DNA from: Umezawaea endophytica
Lineage (GTDB): Bacteria; Actinomycetota; Actinomycetes; Mycobacteriales; Pseudonocardiaceae
Assembly: GCF_025061645.1 (NCBI RefSeq)
Contig: NZ_JANYMP010000026.1
Span: 1 to 64,000, forward strand
DNA: 64,000 nucleotides
Direction: 5' to 3'
In this document: in pieces, positions 48,061 through 61,418 of the stretch
How positions within the stretch are numbered: the stretch's first letter is position 1
Layout of the letters: each line of letters starts with the position of its first letter
Notes under the pieces: generated by a model
Told to the model about the DNA's origin: nothing
Seen by the model: the letters and a program-made list of their open reading frames with translations, nothing else
Databases searched by the model: none
Translations under genes and position numbers: made by a program

Positions 48061-48753
48061 ATGGCCCGCCTGGACTACACCGAGCTCAACGACACCATCC
48101 GCTACACCATGTGGTCGGTCTTCCGCGTCGAACCCGGCCGCCTCCCCGACGACCGCGGCTCCGCGGCCACCGAGGCGCAGAACTACCTGGACGCCCTGGA
48201 AGGCAAGGGCGTCGTGGTGCGCGGCGTGTACGACGTCGCGGGCCTGCGGGCCGACGCGGACTACATGATCTGGTGGCACGCCGAGGAGATCGAACAGGTC
48301 CAGGCCGCCTACCAGGGCTTCCGCCGCACCGCCGTGGGCCGCGTGTCCACCCCGGTCTGGAGCCAGGTCGCGCTGCACCGGCCCGCCGAGTTCAACCGCA
48401 GCCACATCCCGGCGTTCCTCGCCGGTGAAGAGGCCCGCAAGTACGTGTGCGTGTACCCGTTCGTGCGCTCCTACGAGTGGTACCTGCTGCCCGAGGCCGA
48501 CCGGCGCAAGATGCTCGCCGACCACGGCAAGGAAGCGCGGGACTACCCGGACGTGCGCGCCAACACGGTGTCCTCGTTCGCGCTCGGCGACTACGAGTGG
48601 ATGCTGGCGTTCGAGGCGGACGAGCTGCACCGCATCGTCGACCTCATGCGGCACCTGCGCGGCACCGAGGCCCGCCTGCACGTCCGCGAGGAGGTCCCGT
48701 TCTACACCGGGACCCGCGTGCCCGCCTCCGAGCTGGTCATCAACCTGCCGTGA
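48061..48753 (+). CDS. hemQ: Coproheme decarboxylase HemQ (chlorite dismutase fold)
   Basis: The 230-residue protein matches actinobacterial HemQ/Chd[65 protein letters not shown] (Tyr and Lys of the coproheme site) minus its ends, [15 protein letters not shown] (proximal His) and [20 protein letters not shown]. It removes two propionate carboxyls from coproheme to give heme b, the last step of the coproporphyrin route started by hemE and cgoX. ATG 48061 has a ggag site. The symbol chdC is also used. It lies between two antisense subtilases rather than directly after cgoX. Confidence 0.95.
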
Positions 48754-52790: not shown

Positions 52791-55700
52791 CTAGCCCGCG
52801 ATCTTGTAAGCGCGGATCACGGTGTTCTCGACGGAGTTCCCCTTGCTGTCGGTGGCCTTGGCCCGCAGTGAGGCGAAGCTGCCGGCGGGTCCGTTGTGGA
52901 CGATCGCCGACCTGCCGATGACGGGTGCGTGGCGCCAGGTCTTGCCGTCGTCGAAGGAGACGTCGACGGTGATCCGGTTGACGCGGCCGTTGTCGGCACC
53001 GGGGTTCTGCTGCACGAGCAGCGGAACCGCGATCAGCCGTCCGGCGGGTGCGGAGTTCTTCTTGTCCAGCTTCGGCAGGAAGCGGACGACCGACAGCGGC
53101 AGCGACTTGGACTGCTGCCCGTCCACGTGCGCCGAGCGGAACGTCCACGCGGCGCTGACCCTGGTGCTGAACTCGGACACGCCGCTGCGGGTCGCCTCGG
53201 ACTCCAGGCGGTAGGCCCCCGCCTCGGCTGGCACGGTGAAGTCGCCGTACGTGGTGGTGGTCTCACCGACCTTCGTGCCGTTGCGGAAGAGCGTTGTCCT
53301 GGCCGAGTCGACCAGCGAGTAGCCCTCACCGCCCCTGTTGTCGCTGAAGAGCGGCACCGAGGCGCGGATGGAGTCGCCGCTCCGGCCCAACGCCCGCAGG
53401 TAGCCGTCCAAGCCGGGGCTGAAGACGGCGTAGTTGGGCGCGAGCTCGTAGCTCTTGCCCGGCTTGTACTTCTTCGGGGGCGTGACCTGCTCCGTCTCCA
53501 GCGAGTTGCCCGACACCTGGTCGTACAGGGCACCCCACGTGGTGTTGTCACCGGCGACGAGGTCGACCATCGTGCCGGACTCGCCCATGGGCGCGATCCA
53601 CGACCAGCCGCCACCGCCGTCGGGGTCCGTCCCGAGCAGCGCGTGCGCGTGGGTCCGGCCTTCCGGGGTCGGGCCGACCGTGGTCCTGACCTCGGCGAAG
53701 TCCTTCTTGGCCAGGTCGCGGACGTGCCCGGTGGGCGCCTTCCCCAACCACGCCGAGCCGAACCGGTAGTTGATCGGCGTGTCACCGTCCGGGGTGCCGC
53801 GCCACTGGACGCCCATCCGCGCCGTCAGGTCACCCGGCGCGACGTCCGGGCCGAGCTGGGCCGTCGTCAGGGTGTCGCCGAAGTCGCTGAGGTAGATCAG
53901 GCCGTAGCCGGTGCTCTTCTGCCCCGACCGCCTGGTCACGGAGTACTCGCCCAGCACGCCCTCGGCCGCGGGCTCGGGGACGGACACCTTGACGGGCTTG
54001 GCGACCCGCGCGTCGATGTCGACGACGGTGTCCCCGCTGACCGTGAGCTTCGGCCGCGTGAGCACCGCCCAGTCGGACCCGGTCACGATGTAGGTCGTGC
54101 CGAAGTAGTCGCCCTTCGGCACGCGGACGCTGCTGCTCCCGTCCTCCTCGTAGAAGCCGTAGGCCTTCATCGTGTCGAGCGCCACGAGCGCCGTGGAGCT
54201 GTCCGGGGCGGGCTTGCCGTCCGGCCCGGTGTGGTTGACGGTCACGGTGTAGCTCTCGACCTCGCGCACGATGGAGAGCGGGCTGCGCACCGCTCCGCTC
54301 GCCGTGGTGGCGACGACGGTGCCGGTGTAGGCGCCGTCGACCGAGCCGATCCGGGTGTCGCCGGTGACGACCACCTTCGCCTCGCCGCCCGCGGGCACGG
54401 TCACCTTCGCCGGGGAGGCCGTGAGCAGGCCCGCGGGAGCGGGCTTGCCGTCGGGACCCTTGACGTCGACGGCCACGTCCAGCGCGACCGCGTCGGTACC
54501 GGAGTTGCGGTAGACGACCTCCTTGGAGACCGGCACGTCGTCGGCGTGCGGCCACTCGTGCAGGCCGAGGCTGAGGCTCGCGGGCTCGGCCGTCACGGTC
54601 TGGGTGATGGCCTTGGTCAGGTCGATCCGCCCGGTGCCCTGGTCGAACGCGGTCAGCGCCGGGTTCGGCTTCGCCGAGGCGACCAGCGCCGCCTTGATCC
54701 GCGATCCCGTCCAATCGGGGTGCTGCTGCTTGAGCAGCGCCGCCGCGCCCGCGACGTGCGGGGTGGCCATCGACGTGCCGGACATGGACACGTAGCCGTC
54801 ACCCGCGGGGGTGCCGATCACGCCGGTGGACGACTTCGCCGCCACGATGCCCACACCCGGTGCGGTGACGTCGGGCTTCACGGCGCCGTCGCCGACCCTG
54901 GGGCCGCGGCTGGAGAACGGGGCGATGCCGTCGTTGCGGTCCACGGCACCGACGGTGAGCGCGGCGTCCGCGCTGCCGGGGGAGCCGATGGTCTCGGCGC
55001 CGCCCGAGTTGCCCGCCGCGATGACGAAGAGCGTGCCGTACTGGGCGGACAGCGTGTTCACCGCTTCTTCGAGCGGGTCGATCTCCGGGCTGTCACCGCC
55101 ACCCAGGCTGAGGTTCACGACGTCGGCGCCCTGCTCGGCCGCCCACGCCATGCCGTCGAGGATCCACGACTCGGCGCACCCGTTGAGGACGCAGACCTTG
55201 CCGTCCATGATCTTCGCGTCCGGTGCCACGCCGCGGTACTTGGCCCCGGCGCTGGCGATCGTGGCCGCCACGTGCGTGCCGTGGCCGACGAGGTCCTGGT
55301 TGTCGGCGTCCTCGGTGAAGTTCTGCTCCACCAGTTCCCGGCCCTTGAGGTCGGGGTGCTCGGCATCGACGCCGGTGTCGAGCACGGCGACCTTCACGCC
55401 GGTCCCGGTGTAGCCGGCCTGCCACGCCGCGGGAGCGCCGATCTGCGCCACGCTGCGGTCCAGGGTCGGCTGCCGCAGGCCGTCGAGCCTGATCTTCGTG
55501 TAGGCGCTGTCGGCGAGGAGGGCGCTCCACGCGCTCGCGGCCTGCGCCTTGGCCGTGCGGGCCGCGAACGACCGCACGGTCGGCAGTGCACCGGTGACCG
55601 CTGTCCCGACGGGGGAGCCCGCCGCGCGGAGGTCCTTGCCGGTCGTGAGGATCAGTGGAACGGAGTCGCGGTGGGCGTCGTCGTAGCGCGACTCGATGAG

Positions 55701-56030
55701 TTCGGTGACGTCGAACAGCCGCCTGTCCACCCGGCCCGAGGCCACCGCCCGCCGCGCGTCGGCGGGGACGACGAAGACGTGCCCCTGCTCGGTGGACGTG
55801 GTGAAGACAACGTTGTCGCGACCGGCGGCCTTGACGACCGAGCCACCTCCGGTCCCGTCGAGCACAACGCGGTCACCCGTGATCAGCGTGACGGAACCCG
55901 CCTTGCCCGCGGCGGGGAACCTCGTCGGCGCGGACTCCGCGGCCGTCGACTCCCCCGCCGATCCGACCACGAGTCCGAACGCGAGCGCGGCCACTCCCAG
56001 TAGAGCGCCGTGTCGTCGTGTTGATCGCAA
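52791..56030 (-). CDS. Secreted S8 subtilisin-like protease 3
   Basis: The 1079-residue secreted subtilase is closest to copy 1. The start is TTG 56030 with ggaggtgg just before. The signal peptide core is LLGVAALAFGLVVGSAGES, the propeptide SVTLITGDRVVLDGTGGGSV, Asp in VAVLDTGVDAEHPDL, His in GHGTHVAATIASAGAKY, Asn in VIAAGNSGGAE and Ser in SGTSMATPHVAGAA (about 415). The C-terminal region ends NTVIRAYKIAG. In the segment after the catalytic domain it differs from copy 1 (ALDTMKAYGFYEEDGSSSV). The near-identity of both gene ends with copy 1 suggests recent duplication or gene conversion. Confidence 0.92.
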   Translation of the reverse strand: MRSTRRHGALLGVAALAFGLVVGSAGESTAAESAPTRFPAAGKAGSVTLITGDRVVLDGTGGGSVVKAAGRDNVVFTTSTEQGHVFVVPADARRAVASGRVDRRLFDVTELIESRYDDAHRDSVPLILTTGKDLRAAGSPVGTAVTGALPTVRSFAARTAKAQAASAWSALLADSAYTKIRLDGLRQPTLDRSVAQIGAPAAWQAGYTGTGVKVAVLDTGVDAEHPDLKGRELVEQNFTEDADNQDLVGHGTHVAATIASAGAKYRGVAPDAKIMDGKVCVLNGCAESWILDGMAWAAEQGADVVNLSLGGGDSPEIDPLEEAVNTLSAQYGTLFVIAAGNSGGAETIGSPGSADAALTVGAVDRNDGIAPFSSRGPRVGDGAVKPDVTAPGVGIVAAKSSTGVIGTPAGDGYVSMSGTSMATPHVAGAAALLKQQHPDWTGSRIKAALVASAKPNPALTAFDQGTGRIDLTKAITQTVTAEPASLSLGLHEWPHADDVPVSKEVVYRNSGTDAVALDVAVDVKGPDGKPAPAGLLTASPAKVTVPAGGEAKVVVTGDTRIGSVDGAYTGTVVATTASGAVRSPLSIVREVESYTVTVNHTGPDGKPAPDSSTALVALDTMKAYGFYEEDGSSSVRVPKGDYFGTTYIVTGSDWAVLTRPKLTVSGDTVVDIDARVAKPVKVSVPEPAAEGVLGEYSVTRRSGQKSTGYGLIYLSDFGDTLTTAQLGPDVAPGDLTARMGVQWRGTPDGDTPINYRFGSAWLGKAPTGHVRDLAKKDFAEVRTTVGPTPEGRTHAHALLGTDPDGGGGWSWIAPMGESGTMVDLVAGDNTTWGALYDQVSGNSLETEQVTPPKKYKPGKSYELAPNYAVFSPGLDGYLRALGRSGDSIRASVPLFSDNRGGEGYSLVDSARTTLFRNGTKVGETTTTYGDFTVPAEAGAYRLESEATRSGVSEFSTRVSAAWTFRSAHVDGQQSKSLPLSVVRFLPKLDKKNSAPAGRLIAVPLLVQQNPGADNGRVNRITVDVSFDDGKTWRHAPVIGRSAIVHNGPAGSFASLRAKATDSKGNSVENTVIRAYKIAG

Positions 56031-56082
56031 CAGCCACCTCCCGGTTTGGTGAATCCGTGCGGGAACGCACGACCGGGGCGTC

Positions 56083-56148
56083 GATCGAACGGTGGCGGCG
56101 GTGTACCGAAAGTGACGAAAGACCCCGGCACTTTCGAACATATCGACG
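56083..56148 (-). promoter_or_regulatory. Conserved upstream block of subtilase 3
   Basis: This is the counterpart of 52082-52148, with the same order of gatcg, ggcggtg-accgaa, gtgacgaaa and tcgaac-tatcg. It begins about 50 bases upstream of the TTG start at 56030. Confidence 0.5.
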
Positions 56149-56286: not shown

Positions 56287-56634
56287 TCAGGACGCGGTCC
56301 GGCGCCACCAGCGCTTCGGTTTCACCGGCGGCAGGGCCCCGCGGTCCCGCGCCCAGGCCGTGAAGGCCGCGGCGTCCTCCCGAGCCCGGCTGCCCGCCAC
56401 CCGCGGGTGGGCCAGGGCGTACTCGTCGAACAGCGGGCGGAAGCGGTCCGCCAGCGCGTCGACGGCCTCCGGCGCGAGCATCGCCACGATGCCGCGCCGC
56501 TTCGCCAGCAGCGACCGTGCCTCCACGCGCAGCAGGCGCTCGTCGAACCCGCCGGGGGAGGGGCCGCCCGCCAGCAGCGCGGTCAGCAGCTCCGCCTGGG
56601 CCCTGGCCAGCCGTTCCCGCGCCCCGTCGGTCAT
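56287..56634 (-). CDS. Small partner protein of the DUF692 enzyme
   Basis: The 115-residue helical protein has [60 protein letters not shown] minus its last residue and [18 protein letters not shown], and ends in a basic KRWWRR. MNIO enzymes normally need a partner that binds the precursor; this gene, coupled to DUF692 by ATGA overlap, is the natural candidate, although it is smaller than known partners of the DUF2063 type. From memory, unverified, a similar small gene follows DUF692 in streptomycetes. It is the last gene of the operon. Confidence 0.7.
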
Positions 56635-57446
56635 CCGCGCCCCGCCAGCACCGCGCGGATCGCCGCCATCTCGCCCGCCAGCTCGGTGTCGGACGGGTAG
56701 TTGTCGTCGCGCTCCAGCAGCACACCGGGCGGGTCCACGCGGGACCTCAGCTCGCCCAGCAGGTCCAGCACCTCCGGCAGCACCGCGTGGGCGTGGGTGT
56801 CGTGGTAGACGCCGTCGTTCTCCACGCCACCCGCCACGTGCACGTAGGCCAGGCGCTCCAACGGGATCTCGTCCAGGAACCGGTTCGGGTCCGTGCCGAG
56901 GTTGCGGGCGTTCGCGTGCAGGTTCGCCACGTCGATCAGCAGGAAGCAGTCCGTGCGCTCCACCAGGTCCGCCAGGAACTGGCCCTCGGTCAGCTCGCCG
57001 TCCGGCCACTCCAGCAGCGCGGCGATGTTCTCCAGCGCCAGCGGCACCGGCAGGTTCGCCTGCGCCGTCCTCACGTTGGCCACCAGCACGTCCAGCGCGT
57101 CCCGCGTGCGCGGCACCGGCATCAGGTGCCCGGAGTCGAGCCCGCCCGCGCGGACGAAGCACACGTGGTCGCTCACCAGCGGCGCGCCCAGCGCCTCCGC
57201 CACCGAGCCGAGGTGCTCGACCCGGTGCGCGTCGACGGGGTCCGCGCTGCCCAGCGAGAGCGACACCGCGTGCGGCAGCACCGGCACACCCCGTTCGCGC
57301 AGCAGCAGGATCGACTCCGGCAGGTGCTCCACGTGCAGGTTCTCCGCGACCACCTCGACGAAGTCGACGTCGGGCAGCCGTTCCACGGTCAGGTCGATCT
57401 CCGCGCGCCAGCCGATGCCGACGCCGAGCCTGTCGATGGCACCCAT
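56631..57446 (-). CDS. DUF692 / MNIO-family multinuclear iron enzyme
   Basis: The 271-residue TIM-barrel protein of DUF692, now called the MNIO family, starts [17 protein letters not shown]. Candidate iron ligands are His in LVSDHVCFV, Glu in ALENIAALL, Asp and His in [14 protein letters not shown], His in YVHVAGG, and the Asp/His pair of [14 protein letters not shown]. Characterised MNIO proteins such as MbnB and TglH modify Cys residues of peptides with oxygen. Here two membrane proteins with Cys-rich tails lie directly upstream. The ATG shares one base with the stop of the second of them, with ggaggtgggg as ribosome site. Confidence 0.88.
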
Positions 57447-58282
57447 CAGTCCCCACCTCCTCCGCCACCGCACGACGAGCCGCAGGACGATCCGCTGCTG
57501 CACGACGACGAGCTGTCACTGCTGGAACCGCAGCCGCTGTTCGAGCCGCAGCCACTGGAACAGCTATTGCAACTGCTCCCGTACATGGTGCCGCCGTCCG
57601 AGCCGTTCCTGTTCCGGGCGTGCTTGCCCCGGCGCAGCGTCGCGCCCGCGCTCGGCACGATCCCGAGCATCTCCCACACGTAGTACATGTTCGGGAAATT
57701 CCCAATGCGTCCCGTCAGGCCGTGCTGGGCCACGATGCCGACCCGGTCGTTCGACATGACCACGACCTTCCGCTCCTCGCGGCGGCCCGCCCGGCGCACC
57801 GGACGGCGCATCCGGCCCGCGACCCAGCGGACGGCCAGCGCGAGCACGACCACCAGGATCGCGATCCCGGCGTTCAGGTCCACCAGGCCGACGGCGGCGA
57901 TGGCGCCGACCGCGGCGACGACGCAGAGGAACCGGACGAAGCCCCACGCCTTGCGCCTGCCGGGCGAGATCAGCAGACCCCGGTCGACCAGGTGCTGCTT
58001 CAGCGCGTCCAGCGCGCCGCTGCCCGCCGTGGACTTGATCAGCTCGCCCAGCATCCGGCCGGTGCGGGCCGCGCCCAGCGCGTACGCCTCCAACGGTGTC
58101 GCCGCGCCCTGCGAGGTCGCGGACACCGCGCTCACCACCCCCTCACGGGAGATCCGCAGGAGTCCCGCCTCCAGCAGCCGGACGACCGCCACCTCCGCGG
58201 CGCGGCCAGGCCCGCCGGACAGGTAGCCGAATTCCTCGACCGAGATGCCTGTTCTGCCCGAAATATCCGTCCCGGAAGCCAT
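57446..58282 (-). CDS. TIGR04222-like membrane protein with Cys/Ser/Gly tail, copy B
   Basis: The 278-residue protein has a cytosolic helical region ([40 protein letters not shown]), typical of TIGR04222. Two adjacent membrane helices follow ([37 protein letters not shown], approximately residues 130-170). After a basic linker and [16 protein letters not shown], the C-terminal 50 residues are Ser, Gly and Cys only, with seven Cys ([15 protein letters not shown] and later [16 protein letters not shown]). Such a tail is an attractive substrate for the DUF692 enzyme that overlaps it. The other copy is 130 bases upstream. Confidence 0.8.
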
Positions 58283-58353
58283 TGACCGCCGCCTTTCCCA
58301 CAAGCCGATGGCCATCCGACTCCGCGGCGGGCCCATTCGTTCCGCGCTGTGAG

Positions 58354-58399
58354 GCCGAGGCCACCACGGCGACGTCAAGTCGTCCGCGATGGCCTCGGC
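58354..58399 (-). promoter_or_regulatory. Intercistronic hairpin between TIGR04222 copies
   Basis: The arms gccgaggcca (58354-58363) and tggcctcggc (58390-58399) bracket a 26-base loop in the 130-base gap between the two membrane-protein genes. It may adjust relative expression or mark partial termination. Confidence 0.45.
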
Positions 58400-58412
58400 A
58401 CCCCCTCACCGG

Positions 58413-59288
58413 CTAGCTGCCACCCCCGCCGCAGCCGCCGCCCCCACCACAACTGCTTCCTCCGCCACTGCTGCAACTGCTCCCGCCGGTGCTGCAACCG
58501 GTCCCGGACGAGACGTAACCGCCGCCGCTGCTCGTGCTCGCGGCCGTGTACATCAGCGACGTGCGCAGGGCCAGGTCGGGGTGCGCGGACAACCCGCCGA
58601 GGGCGACCAGCCCCGCCACACCGCCCGCGCTCGCCGCCGCCCTGCTGCCCGACCGGGCGCCCTCCAGGGCGCGGTCACCCGCGGCCGTGCGCCTGATCGA
58701 GCCGGACCGGGTCAGCAGCACGACCAGCACGGCGGTGAGGATCAACTGGAGCGTCAGCCAGCCGACGGGAGCGCCGATCGCGATCCCGTTGACCCAGCGG
58801 ACCACCCCGATGGCGAACAGCACCACCATCGGCAGCGCGCCCACCCGCAGTTCCCGCTTGGCCGTGGAGGGCTCGATGAGCATCCCCGCCCCGCTGAGCC
58901 GGGTCCCGACCGCCTTCACCGCGTCCGCCTGCACCACGGAGGCCATGAGCAGGTTCAGCGTGCGGTTGCTGTAGCGGCCCGCGTCCGCCAGCACGGCGCG
59001 GTCCACGGCGTTGGTCGCCTTCGGCTTGCCGATCAGCCCCACCGTGCCGCGTCGGGTCGACCGGAGCGCCTCGGCCTCGATCAGCCTGGCCAGGGAGGCC
59101 TCGACCACCCGTCGAGGCCCGCCCGCGAGGTACGCCAACTCGTCGACGTCCACGCTCCCCGCGGGCGCGCCCACCCGGCTCGCCCGCATCCGGATCCGCA
59201 CACCGATCGCGAACAGCACCGAGATGCCCAGCGCGATCCAGTAGATGTTCAGGAATTCCGGGCCCGAAAGCCCCCAAGGTTGCTCCAC
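58413..59288 (-). CDS. TIGR04222-like membrane protein with Cys/Gly tail, copy A
   Basis: The 291-residue protein has an N-terminal membrane helix (IYWIALGISVLFAIGVRI), then the TIGR04222 helical region (VDVDELAYLAGGPRRVVEAS, LARLIEAEALRSTRRGTVGL). Two further helices lie in the middle (LPMVVLFAIGVVRWVNGI; LTLQLILTAVLVVLL). A tail with four Cys among Gly and Ser follows (GTGCSTGGSSCSSGGGSSCG). It heads the operon. The start is GTG 59288, preceded by aggggg; the longer frame to 59357 enters the promoter. Copy A differs from B in its extra first helix, and the tail would lie on the same side as the DUF692 enzyme only if the topology is Nout or Nin as appropriate, which cannot be settled here. 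Confidence 0.78.
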   Translation of the reverse strand: MEQPWGLSGPEFLNIYWIALGISVLFAIGVRIRMRASRVGAPAGSVDVDELAYLAGGPRRVVEASLARLIEAEALRSTRRGTVGLIGKPKATNAVDRAVLADAGRYSNRTLNLLMASVVQADAVKAVGTRLSGAGMLIEPSTAKRELRVGALPMVVLFAIGVVRWVNGIAIGAPVGWLTLQLILTAVLVVLLTRSGSIRRTAAGDRALEGARSGSRAAASAGGVAGLVALGGLSAHPDLALRTSLMYTAASTSSGGGYVSSGTGCSTGGSSCSSGGGSSCGGGGGCGGGGS

Positions 59289-59614: not shown

Positions 59615-60043
59615 TTAGGGCGCGGATTCGTCCACCAATCGCAAGCTGATGCTGTTGATGCAGTAACGCTGATCCGTAGGAGTGTCGTAACCCTCGCCCT
59701 CGAAAACGTGCCCGAGGTGGCTGTGGCAGTTCCCGCACAGCACTTCCGTGCGGACCATGCCCATGGCGCGGTCCTCGCGCAGGATCACCCGGTCCGCCGC
59801 CAGCGGCGAGAAGAACGAGGGCCAGCCGCAGTGCGAGTCGAACTTGGTCTCGCTGCGGAACAGTTCGGTGCCGCACGCGCGGCACTCGTAGACACCGACC
59901 TTCTTGGTGTCCGTGTACTCACCGACCCACGCGGGCTCGGTGCCGCCCTGGCGCAGGACGCGGTACTCGCTGGGGGTCAGGCTCTCCCGCCACTCCTGCT
60001 CCGAGCGGACGACCTTCGGCGTGGCGCCGACAACAGGTTCCAT
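59615..60043 (-). CDS. msrB: Peptide-methionine (R)-S-oxide reductase
   Basis: The 142-residue enzyme has two zinc CxxC pairs (YECRACGTELF about residue 55; VLCGNCHSHLGHVF about 104), the FDSHCGWPSFF motif, and the catalytic Cys in DQRYCINSISLRL (about 130). It reduces the R-sulfoxide of methionine in proteins using thioredoxin. The ATG at 60043 is unrivalled. Its place next to the Cys-rich membrane operon could be chance or point to oxidative-stress biology. The gene stands alone. Confidence 0.95.
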   Translation of the reverse strand: MEPVVGATPKVVRSEQEWRESLTPSEYRVLRQGGTEPAWVGEYTDTKKVGVYECRACGTELFRSETKFDSHCGWPSFFSPLAADRVILREDRAMGMVRTEVLCGNCHSHLGHVFEGEGYDTPTDQRYCINSISLRLVDESAP

Positions 60044-60131: not shown

Positions 60132-60446
60132 TCACCCGAACAGGACCCCGATGATCTCGCCGAGGCCGAACCACACGCTGATCAGCACGCCGAGCAGGAT
60201 CAGCGTCACCACCAGCACCGCGAGGAAGCGCTGCTCCCCGCTGGCGCGGTTCGCCGAGTCGGCGAAGTCCGCCACGCCGTCGAGGTAGCCCTCGACCGTG
60301 TAGCCCGGCCGTTCCCGCTCCATCCGGTCCAGGTGCTCCGCGAAGGCCTTCGCCTCGGGATCCGCCGGATCGAGCCCGATGAGGTCGTCGGAGAACCGCT
60401 TCGCCGGTCCTTCGTCTGGTCTTTCCGCGCCTGGAAAGGTGGCCAT
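60132..60446 (-). CDS. Small membrane protein, unknown function
   Basis: The 104-residue protein has an acidic N-terminal half (KRFSDDLIGLDPADPEAKAF, HLDRMERERPGYTVEGYLDG) and a C-terminal membrane helix (FLAVLVVTLILLGVLISVWFG) with a short hydrophobic end. Its family is unrecognised. It begins 22 bases from the stop of the asparaginase gene in the same direction and may be cotranscribed with it. Confidence 0.65.
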   Translation of the reverse strand: MATFPGAERPDEGPAKRFSDDLIGLDPADPEAKAFAEHLDRMERERPGYTVEGYLDGVADFADSANRASGEQRFLAVLVVTLILLGVLISVWFGLGEIIGVLFG

Positions 60447-60467: not shown

Positions 60468-61418
60468 TCAGCCCGCCAAGGCCAGAGCGGGCCTCACCGC
60501 GCCGACGGGCAGCCCGTGGCCCAGCACCGGGACGGTCGCCAACGACGTGAGCGCGCCCACGTCCACCCCGAGCATCCGCAGCGCTTCGACGACGACCACG
60601 GCCCGCGCCCGGCTGGACCCGTCCGCGATCTTCAGCGCCACCGCGGACCCGTCCGGCAGGCCGATCGCGTAGACGCCCTCGGCGCCGTCCTTGGCCAGCG
60701 CACCCGGCAGGGCCCGCATCAGCTCGGTGACGTCGCGGCCGGTGCCGCCGACCCACTCGGGGTGGCGGTTCATCGCGGCGGCGATCCGGTGCTCCGGGGT
60801 GCCCTCCGGCGCGCTGGCGATCGTGCCGAACGCCCGCGCCAGCCCGTTCAGGCTGATCCCGAACAGCGGCGCGCCGCACCCGTCGACCCCGACCGCGCCG
60901 ACGAGTTCCCCCGACAGTTCTTCGAGGGTCGTCCGCATCGCGACCTGGAGCGGGTGGTCGGGCGAGAGGTAGTCGTCGGTCGACCAGCCGTTGCGCACGC
61001 AGGTCAGCAGCATCGCGGCGTGCTTGCCCGAGCAGTTCATGTACTCCGGGGCCCGGCCCCGGCCCGCGGCCAGGTGGGCGGCCAGCGCGGCCTCGCCGAT
61101 CGGCAGGTCCGGGGTGCACTGGAGGGCGGTGAGGTCCAGGCCCGCCAGCGCCAGGATCCGGCGGGCGCCCTCGACGTGGAAGTCCTCGCCGGAGTGGCTG
61201 GCGCAGGCCAGCGCCAGCAGTTCGCCGTCGAGGTCGAGGCCGTTGCGGAGCATCGCCAGGCCCTGCACCGGCTTGTTGGAGGAACGGGGGAGCGTCACCC
61301 GTTCGGGGTGGCCCTTGCGGAGGACTTCGGCACCGGACGCGTCGAACGCGACCACCGAACCGTGGTGCACGGATTCCAGGAACTCGCCACGCCAGACCTC
61401 GGCCACGACCTCGTGCAC
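60468..61418 (-). CDS. L-asparaginase II-family protein
   Basis: The 316-residue protein of the L-asparaginase II (PF06089) class has SSNKPVQGLAML near residue 45, ACASHSGEDFHVEGA, YMNCSGKHAAMLLTC near 128 and VDGCGAPLFGIS near 178. These residues are typical of the family, which is distinct from AnsA/AnsB but related in mechanism. It should hydrolyse asparagine or a related amide in the cytoplasm. GTG 61418 follows gaggagg. It is divergent from a GntR regulator with a palindrome between them, so it is probably its target. Confidence 0.85.
   Translation of the reverse strand: MHEVVAEVWRGEFLESVHHGSVVAFDASGAEVLRKGHPERVTLPRSSNKPVQGLAMLRNGLDLDGELLALACASHSGEDFHVEGARRILALAGLDLTALQCTPDLPIGEAALAAHLAAGRGRAPEYMNCSGKHAAMLLTCVRNGWSTDDYLSPDHPLQVAMRTTLEELSGELVGAVGVDGCGAPLFGISLNGLARAFGTIASAPEGTPEHRIAAAMNRHPEWVGGTGRDVTELMRALPGALAKDGAEGVYAIGLPDGSAVALKIADGSSRARAVVVVEALRMLGVDVGALTSLATVPVLGHGLPVGAVRPALALAG

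Follow-up and report, generated by a model that had tools for sequence, protein, structure and literature searches.

Does the MNIO (DUF692) iron enzyme of an actinomycete locus modify the Cys-rich tails of the proteins encoded beside it, and if so, on which side of the membrane do these tails lie? The question is raised by four minus-strand genes in a row, P0001 to P0004, at positions 56287 to 59288 of a 64,000-nucleotide stretch of Umezawaea endophytica DNA (contig NZ_JANYMP010000026.1, positions 1 to 64,000 of the forward strand; hereafter, the window). An earlier reading of this DNA, the original prediction, had described the four genes and proposed that the enzyme acts on the tail of a membrane protein. 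The idea that such tails are substrates is already published as a prediction: Antoine et al. (July 2025) proposed that Ser/Gly/Cys C-terminal segments of a subset of TIGR04222 proteins are MNIO substrates (PMC12452194). Here, we strengthen the substrate reading, change the picture of the partner protein, and argue for the cytosolic side. The system is real and conserved. We consider it probable, although by no great measure, that the four genes form one system that modifies the tail Cys, that the tail is cytosolic, and that the product is a metal buffer or sensor.

P0001 (58413 to 59288, minus strand, GTG start) is a TIGR04222 membrane protein of 291 residues, scoring 140 bits against the NCBIfam TIGR04222 profile (cutoff 43). 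Its AlphaFold2 model (mean predicted local distance difference test [pLDDT] score of 81) consists of a transmembrane helix (TM1), an N-terminal domain that we read as winged-helix-like, a hairpin of two further helices (TM2 and TM3), and a disordered Gly/Ser tail at residues 253 to 291 (58416 to 58532, minus strand), with pLDDT <50 at residues 253 to 274, 282 to 285, and 287 to 291. P0002 (57446 to 58282, minus strand, 278 residues) is a second TIGR04222 membrane protein (78.5 bits versus the cutoff of 43, profile positions 31 to 195). It has no TM1: a soluble N-terminal domain is followed by the TM2-TM3 hairpin and a Gly/Ser tail at residues 235 to 278 (57449 to 57580, minus strand), and even the furthest upstream start adds no hydrophobic stretch ahead of the hairpin. 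By translation, the two tails contain 4 and 7 Cys, respectively, as originally described; P0002 has one extra Cys outside the tail, within a membrane segment. P0003 (56631 to 57446, minus strand, 271 residues) is the MNIO, with 277 bits against PF05114 (Pfam MbnB_TglH_ChrH, cutoff 25); the nearest named MNIO is that of Umezawaea tangerina (93% identity). P0004 (56287 to 56634, minus strand, 115 residues) is the partner protein, mostly helical in its AlphaFold2 model (pLDDT 89), from which we grew the profile used for partner searches. Both gene junctions were seen as predicted, with the MNIO start and the P0002 stop having one base in common (TGATG) and the P0004 start overlapping the P0003 stop (ATGA). 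A scan for promoters and terminators found none. Elsewhere in the same genome (L003, contig 11 of G000), a third TIGR04222-like match, below threshold at 30 bits, sits in an open frame of 645 codons that has no Gly tail.

Tail cysteines and adjacent MNIO genes

We searched the TIGR04222 and PF05114 profiles against two overlapping draws of genomes, 121 from the order and 394 from the class. TIGR04222 matches over the cutoff numbered 193 in the union of both draws and came from 140 genomes, and the 142 MNIO matches came from 129; because only the top candidates per genome were scored (21, 7, or 15, depending on the search), counts of paralogs are lower bounds. TIGR04222 matches under the curated cutoff (16 + 4 rows) and one short MNIO match (G033:C45:72160) were excluded before counting. 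A second sample consisted of 80 named related loci (L187 to L266), and a third, a phylum draw of 296 genomes, was searched for the partner domain. For the two draws, a Cys was counted as a tail Cys if its flanks were at least 75% Gly/Ser/Cys.

In the two draws, 127 of the 193 TIGR04222 matches had an MNIO within 8 kb, without exception on the same strand, and 98 of the 142 MNIO matches had a neighboring TIGR04222; 30 genomes held TIGR04222 only, and 19 held MNIO only. Co-occurrence, which the original prediction proposed as a check, holds beyond a few relatives, as adjacent TIGR04222-MNIO pairs span 14 family labels of the class. Two or more tail Cys were present in 99 of the 127 MNIO-adjacent matches, in 10 of the 34 matches with an MNIO elsewhere in the genome, and in 1 of the 32 matches from MNIO-free genomes. 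Gly/Ser/Asp-rich tails occurred in 15 of these 32, and 13 of the 15 were without any tail Cys. The same split appeared within families (Cys tails in 15/15 adjacent versus 0/19 nonadjacent matches in f31, Fisher 5e-10; 9/9 versus 0/7 in f15, Fisher 9e-5) and was weak in f33 (15/34 versus 1/12, p 0.035), with all three values uncorrected for relatedness. Among the named loci, 77 of 80 had a TIGR04222 gene, and in all 77 at least one copy bore two or more tail Cys; for L209, L232, and L239, which make up the remainder, the fetched DNA starts only 288 to 559 bases before the MNIO match. Adjacent TIGR04222 matches without a Cys tail numbered 28, and 13 of them adjoin another Cys-tail open reading frame (ORF) in the same locus.

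The tail Cys are regularly spaced. Across 110 Cys tails, the most frequent spacing was six, and the last Cys was two residues from the C-terminus in 60 of 109 closed tails. For the 108 tails with at least three Cys, we compared the 396 gaps between Cys with 200 random placements whose ends were fixed. None of the gaps was ≤2 (random mean 89, minimum 70), and 257 were 5 to 7 (random mean 87, maximum 107). The residue after a tail Cys was Gly in 412 of 504 cases, with Gly making up 63% of the other residues there. Tandem TIGR04222 arrays of up to five genes per locus were observed in L187 to L266. Middle copies within operons are often Cys-free (for example, 4, 0, and 6 tail Cys in L199, L200, L206, and L212), which indicates that only some TIGR04222 proteins are candidate substrates.

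The partner protein, the enzyme, and other carriers of the tail

The partner was nearly universal. Its domain was found in 97 of the 98 MNIO loci with TIGR04222, as an in-frame fusion with the MNIO in 38 and in a separate frame after it in 59; in all 97 it was on the MNIO strand, close behind the MNIO domain. All 80 named loci carried it as well. Of the 44 MNIO matches without a TIGR04222 neighbor, we picked 20 by hand and fetched their loci; 19 of these contained the partner, fused to the MNIO in 6. In the phylum draw, 12 of 296 genomes had the partner, one copy each, next to or within the MNIO gene in the 11 genomes with a listed MNIO position and in the same locus as an MNIO in the twelfth (G506). 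The partner profile gave no matches among 65 fetched loci without an MNIO. One phylum-draw locus (L277) has TIGR04222, MNIO, and partner, but a single tail Cys; separately, L063, L068, L074, and L115 (all f33) combine a fused MNIO-partner gene with a Cys-free TIGR04222 gene and no Cys-tail ORF.

The clusters with a PME-type 2 partner in PMC12452194 share the enzyme family, the tail, and the partner type with the locus described here. In that work, PME-type 2 partners are given for at least 10% of clusters, and many clusters appear partnerless; the accessible part of the article mentions an MNIO-nitroreductase fusion and no MNIO-partner fusion. The partner shown there as model A, from Saccharothrix sp. 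NRRL B-16314, has 115 residues, and L212, from the same strain, has a partner ORF of the same length. Our results differ in the presence of the partner in 97 of 98 loci, its fusion in 38, a tail that is more likely cytosolic, and the existence of further carriers.

Searches of P0004 against NCBIfam and Pfam, set to E 1, returned no family. Among its relatives, 19 of 59 matched DUF2063, weakly (best 9e-4), and P0004 itself was unmatched. Foldseek searches with the P0001 and P0004 models returned nothing at E 0.001 or better; for P0004, the weak matches listed include MbnABC chain C (E 3.7) and TglHI chain A (E 4.9). These matches only hint at a likeness of P0004 to DUF2063 and MbnC/TglI. A PDB sequence profile search with P0004 gave only ChaB (E 0.57), which we rejected.

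The iron ligands of the enzyme are intact. TglH coordinates iron through His71, His107, Glu151, Asp184, Asn187, His216, Asp229, His231, and Glu258 (PMC10880893). Eight of these ligands align to H94, E139, D172, N175, H203, D216, H218, and E245 of P0003, and H59 was assigned by eye as the equivalent of His71. The iron ligands are kept in 99 of 99 aligned sequences, with E245 in 97 of the 99. MbnBC and TglHI belong to the same enzyme family as P0003, which has the TglH iron ligands, and likewise each require a partner; they differ in their short peptide substrates and in the recognition (RRE) domain carried by TglI, and the sequence similarity of P0003 to their enzymes is weak.

Gly-rich Cys-tail ORFs also stood beside the MNIO in 9 of the 20 fetched loci without TIGR04222. 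Seven of these, next to the MNIO and partner genes, encode short proteins with a single helix and a Gly/His/Cys tail (L168 to L171 and L180 to L182); in the four that we compared (L168, L170, L181, and L182), the carrier gene lies between MNIO and partner. The other two encode proteins of approximately 450 residues (L183:3951-5306, minus strand; L184:1616-3043, plus strand), each beside a fused MNIO-partner gene. Their whole-frame hydropathy maxima of 1.54 and 1.35 suggest that they are probably soluble. The carriers of L181, L182, and L183 had no Pfam match at E 0.01. In addition, hairpin-less TIGR04222 proteins exist, and those of L071 and L066 adjoin an MNIO. Between loci, the carrier changes and the tail remains with MNIO and partner. 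The candidate substrate is not limited to three-helix membrane proteins, as one-helix and soluble carriers exist as well.

Side of the membrane and proposed modification

TIGR04222 tails have been predicted to face the periplasm (PMC12452194). We counted Lys and Arg around the predicted helices. Their density per residue was 0.22 ahead of TM2, fell to 0.08 in the TM2-TM3 loop, and rose again to 0.20 behind TM3, and the flanks of the hairpin were richer than the loop in 143 of 172 hairpins. For Cys-tail proteins of the named loci, the flanks exceeded the loop in 67 of 72 three-helix proteins and 39 of 41 TM1-less proteins (106 of 113 classifiable). Around TM1, the density was 0.169 after versus 0.060 before the helix. 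Of the 41 TM1-less Cys-tail proteins, 40 gain no hydrophobic segment from any upstream start. The one-helix anchors, counted without L170, have four to six Lys/Arg in the 20 residues after the helix in five of six cases scored (two in L171); before the helix, there are none in four of six, and five (L169) and four (L171) with a script-chosen start. The AlphaFold2 model of P0001 does not decide the side of the tail. Taken together, the charges around the hairpin and TM1, the TM1-less proteins, and the one-helix anchors favor a cytosolic position of both the tail and the N-terminal domain; the soluble carriers likewise favor a tail in the cytosol.

Several observations weigh against this placement: 28 of 172 hairpins contradict the positive-inside rule, 47 of 178 named sequences are unclassifiable for topology, the charge order around TM1 fits in only 63 of 88 cases, and part of the TIGR04222 family has a weak fourth hydrophobic stretch, which, were it to span the membrane, would place the tail outside. 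In a different reading, the MNIO would modify the tails before insertion, and they would then come to lie on the outer side. The periplasmic side stated from predicted topology in PMC12452194 is consistent with it, as are the Sec signal peptides of bufferins, which are known MNIO products, and the weak fourth stretch. Against it stand the positive-inside analysis, the charge after the helix in one-helix anchors, the TM1-less proteins, and the soluble carriers beside an MNIO; the fourth stretch was seen by eye in hairpin-less forms too. We regard an outside tail as unlikely.

In the reading that we favor, MNIO and a DUF2063-like partner would oxidize the regularly spaced Cys in the Gly/Ser tails of both TIGR04222 proteins, at several sites per tail, probably the Cys-Gly steps. 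Groups derived from Cys, for example thiooxazole or oxazolone-thioamide, may result. The tail would stay in the cytosol, within reach of the enzyme, and the modified Cys would form an intracellular cluster attached to the membrane, which most likely would buffer or sense soft metal (copper). We infer the tail modification, the cytosolic side, the chemistry, and the metal role; what the modification is and what it does (metal, redox, or thio-heterocycle) is a guess. A broader reading, toward which we lean a little less than we lean away, is that the Gly-Ser-Cys tail is a portable multisite tag, modified by MNIO and a dedicated, often-fused partner and always cytosolic. Its carriers would be of no fewer than four kinds, namely TIGR04222 proteins with three helices, TIGR04222 proteins without a hairpin, one-helix anchors, and the soluble proteins of approximately 450 residues. 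If so, the product would be an intracellular, protein-borne thio-heterocycle metal center and not an exported ribosomally synthesized and post-translationally modified peptide.

Among the closest known systems are the bufferins Buf1 and Buf2 and the oxazolins, in which an MNIO and its DUF2063-type partner modify several Cys (PMC12452194), and whose Cys-Gly steps (EGKCG) resemble the TIGR04222 tail. Their precursors differ in having Sec signal peptides and a PME-type 1 partner, in contrast to the membrane or soluble proteins here; P0002 begins with a soluble domain, and P0001, in its AlphaFold2 model, with a helix. DUF2282 was absent among Pfam matches of P0001 and P0002 up to E 1. At E up to 0.1, DUF2207_C was matched by 12 of 71 P0001 relatives (best 7e-6) and GPP34 by 2 of 71 (best 7e-4), and P0001 itself matched neither. 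The top Foldseek chain for the P0001 model was Vps74 (GPP34), but at E 1.5. We know of no Cys tail or MNIO associated with DUF2207_C or GPP34.

MNIO chemistry has so far been known mostly from small, often exported peptides. If the proposed modification is correct, this chemistry would extend to ordinary proteins, through full-length, cytosol-exposed protein tails modified at many regular sites, and would give actinomycetes a new type of internal metal or redox center.

Alternative readings and neighboring genes

The tails might instead be unmodified and bind metal or form disulfides, with the MNIO acting on another substrate nearby or elsewhere. Cys is a metal ligand without modification, and no Cys-tail ORF is present in 15 of the 98 loci with MNIO and TIGR04222, with f33 accounting for 14 of the 15. 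Further observations weigh against the reading that we favor. Among the 20 fetched MNIO loci without TIGR04222, 11 hold no Cys-tail ORF (at least three are cut by contig ends), and of the TIGR04222 proteins without transmembrane helices next to an MNIO, neither is a clean case, with hydropathy maxima of 1.55 (L071) and 1.94 (L066). The split by MNIO adjacency was insignificant in f1, f8, f13, f32, and f43, with one nonadjacent case each in f8 and f13. A true Cys tail occurs in one MNIO-free genome (G195), and when tails were defined more loosely, at least two Cys were counted in 5 of 10 low-complexity tails of MNIO-free genomes; inspected by eye, only that of G195 has Cys within the Gly run, several have Cys preceding the run, and one reading frame looks spurious. 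The accessible part of PMC12452194 reports no experiment on TIGR04222 tails, and we found no biochemical evidence for tail modification in the literature as far as it was accessible. Nevertheless, tail Cys depend on the MNIO within f31 and f15, and it is the tail and not the carrier that stays with MNIO and partner; we find unmodified tails improbable. At the genomic level, the proposal that the tail is the substrate is well supported, by the link between tail Cys and MNIO, the exchange of carriers, the near-universal partner, and the intact iron ligands.

A bacteriocin-like peptide cut from the TIGR04222 tail and released is a much more doubtful alternative. A TIGR04222 peptide was listed in a predicted bacteriocin cluster in 2016 (PMC5183585), and a Peptidase_S8 gene (52791 to 56141, minus strand) lies directly downstream of the partner P0004, which slightly raises the possibility of cleavage. 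A relative of this gene is present in 46 of the 80 named loci, the only loci in which it was sought, and was not in the fetched flank of the other 34. Its N-terminus resembles a signal peptide by eye, so the peptidase would act outside, and the carriers are full-length proteins. Passive drift, by which low-complexity Gly/Ser tails would gain Cys because GGC, AGC, and TGC are one step apart, is scarcely credible in view of the 13 of 15 Cys-free tails in MNIO-free genomes and a Cys spacing far from random.

The original prediction also mentioned a similar gene order near hemQ in streptomycetes, which holds in part. In the window, hemQ (chlorite dismutase family by Pfam; 48061 to 48753, plus strand) lies approximately 8 kb from the cluster, and six ORFs around it gave no Pfam match other than hemQ itself. 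We searched 20 genomes for hemQ, 19 of which have an MNIO (G135 does not). Approximately 8 kb or less separates the gene from the cluster in 11 of the 19 (5/5 in f1, 6/6 in f33, and 0/8 in the others). Because the proximity is limited to f1 and f33, we rejected a functional link and read it as local synteny; that f33 corresponds to Streptomyces is only a guess. SCO6045 is presumably the MNIO-partner gene, an assignment to which we give no weight. It is listed in a table of a redox-sensor paper (PMC4991794), and SCO6042 is named chlorite dismutase in PMC5069765. On the other side of the cluster, directly upstream of the TIGR04222 pair, Pfam searches identified msrB (MsrB, SelR; 59615 to 60043, minus strand), followed by a small ORF without a good Pfam match (60132 to 60446, minus strand) and an asparaginase II gene (60468 to 61418, minus strand).

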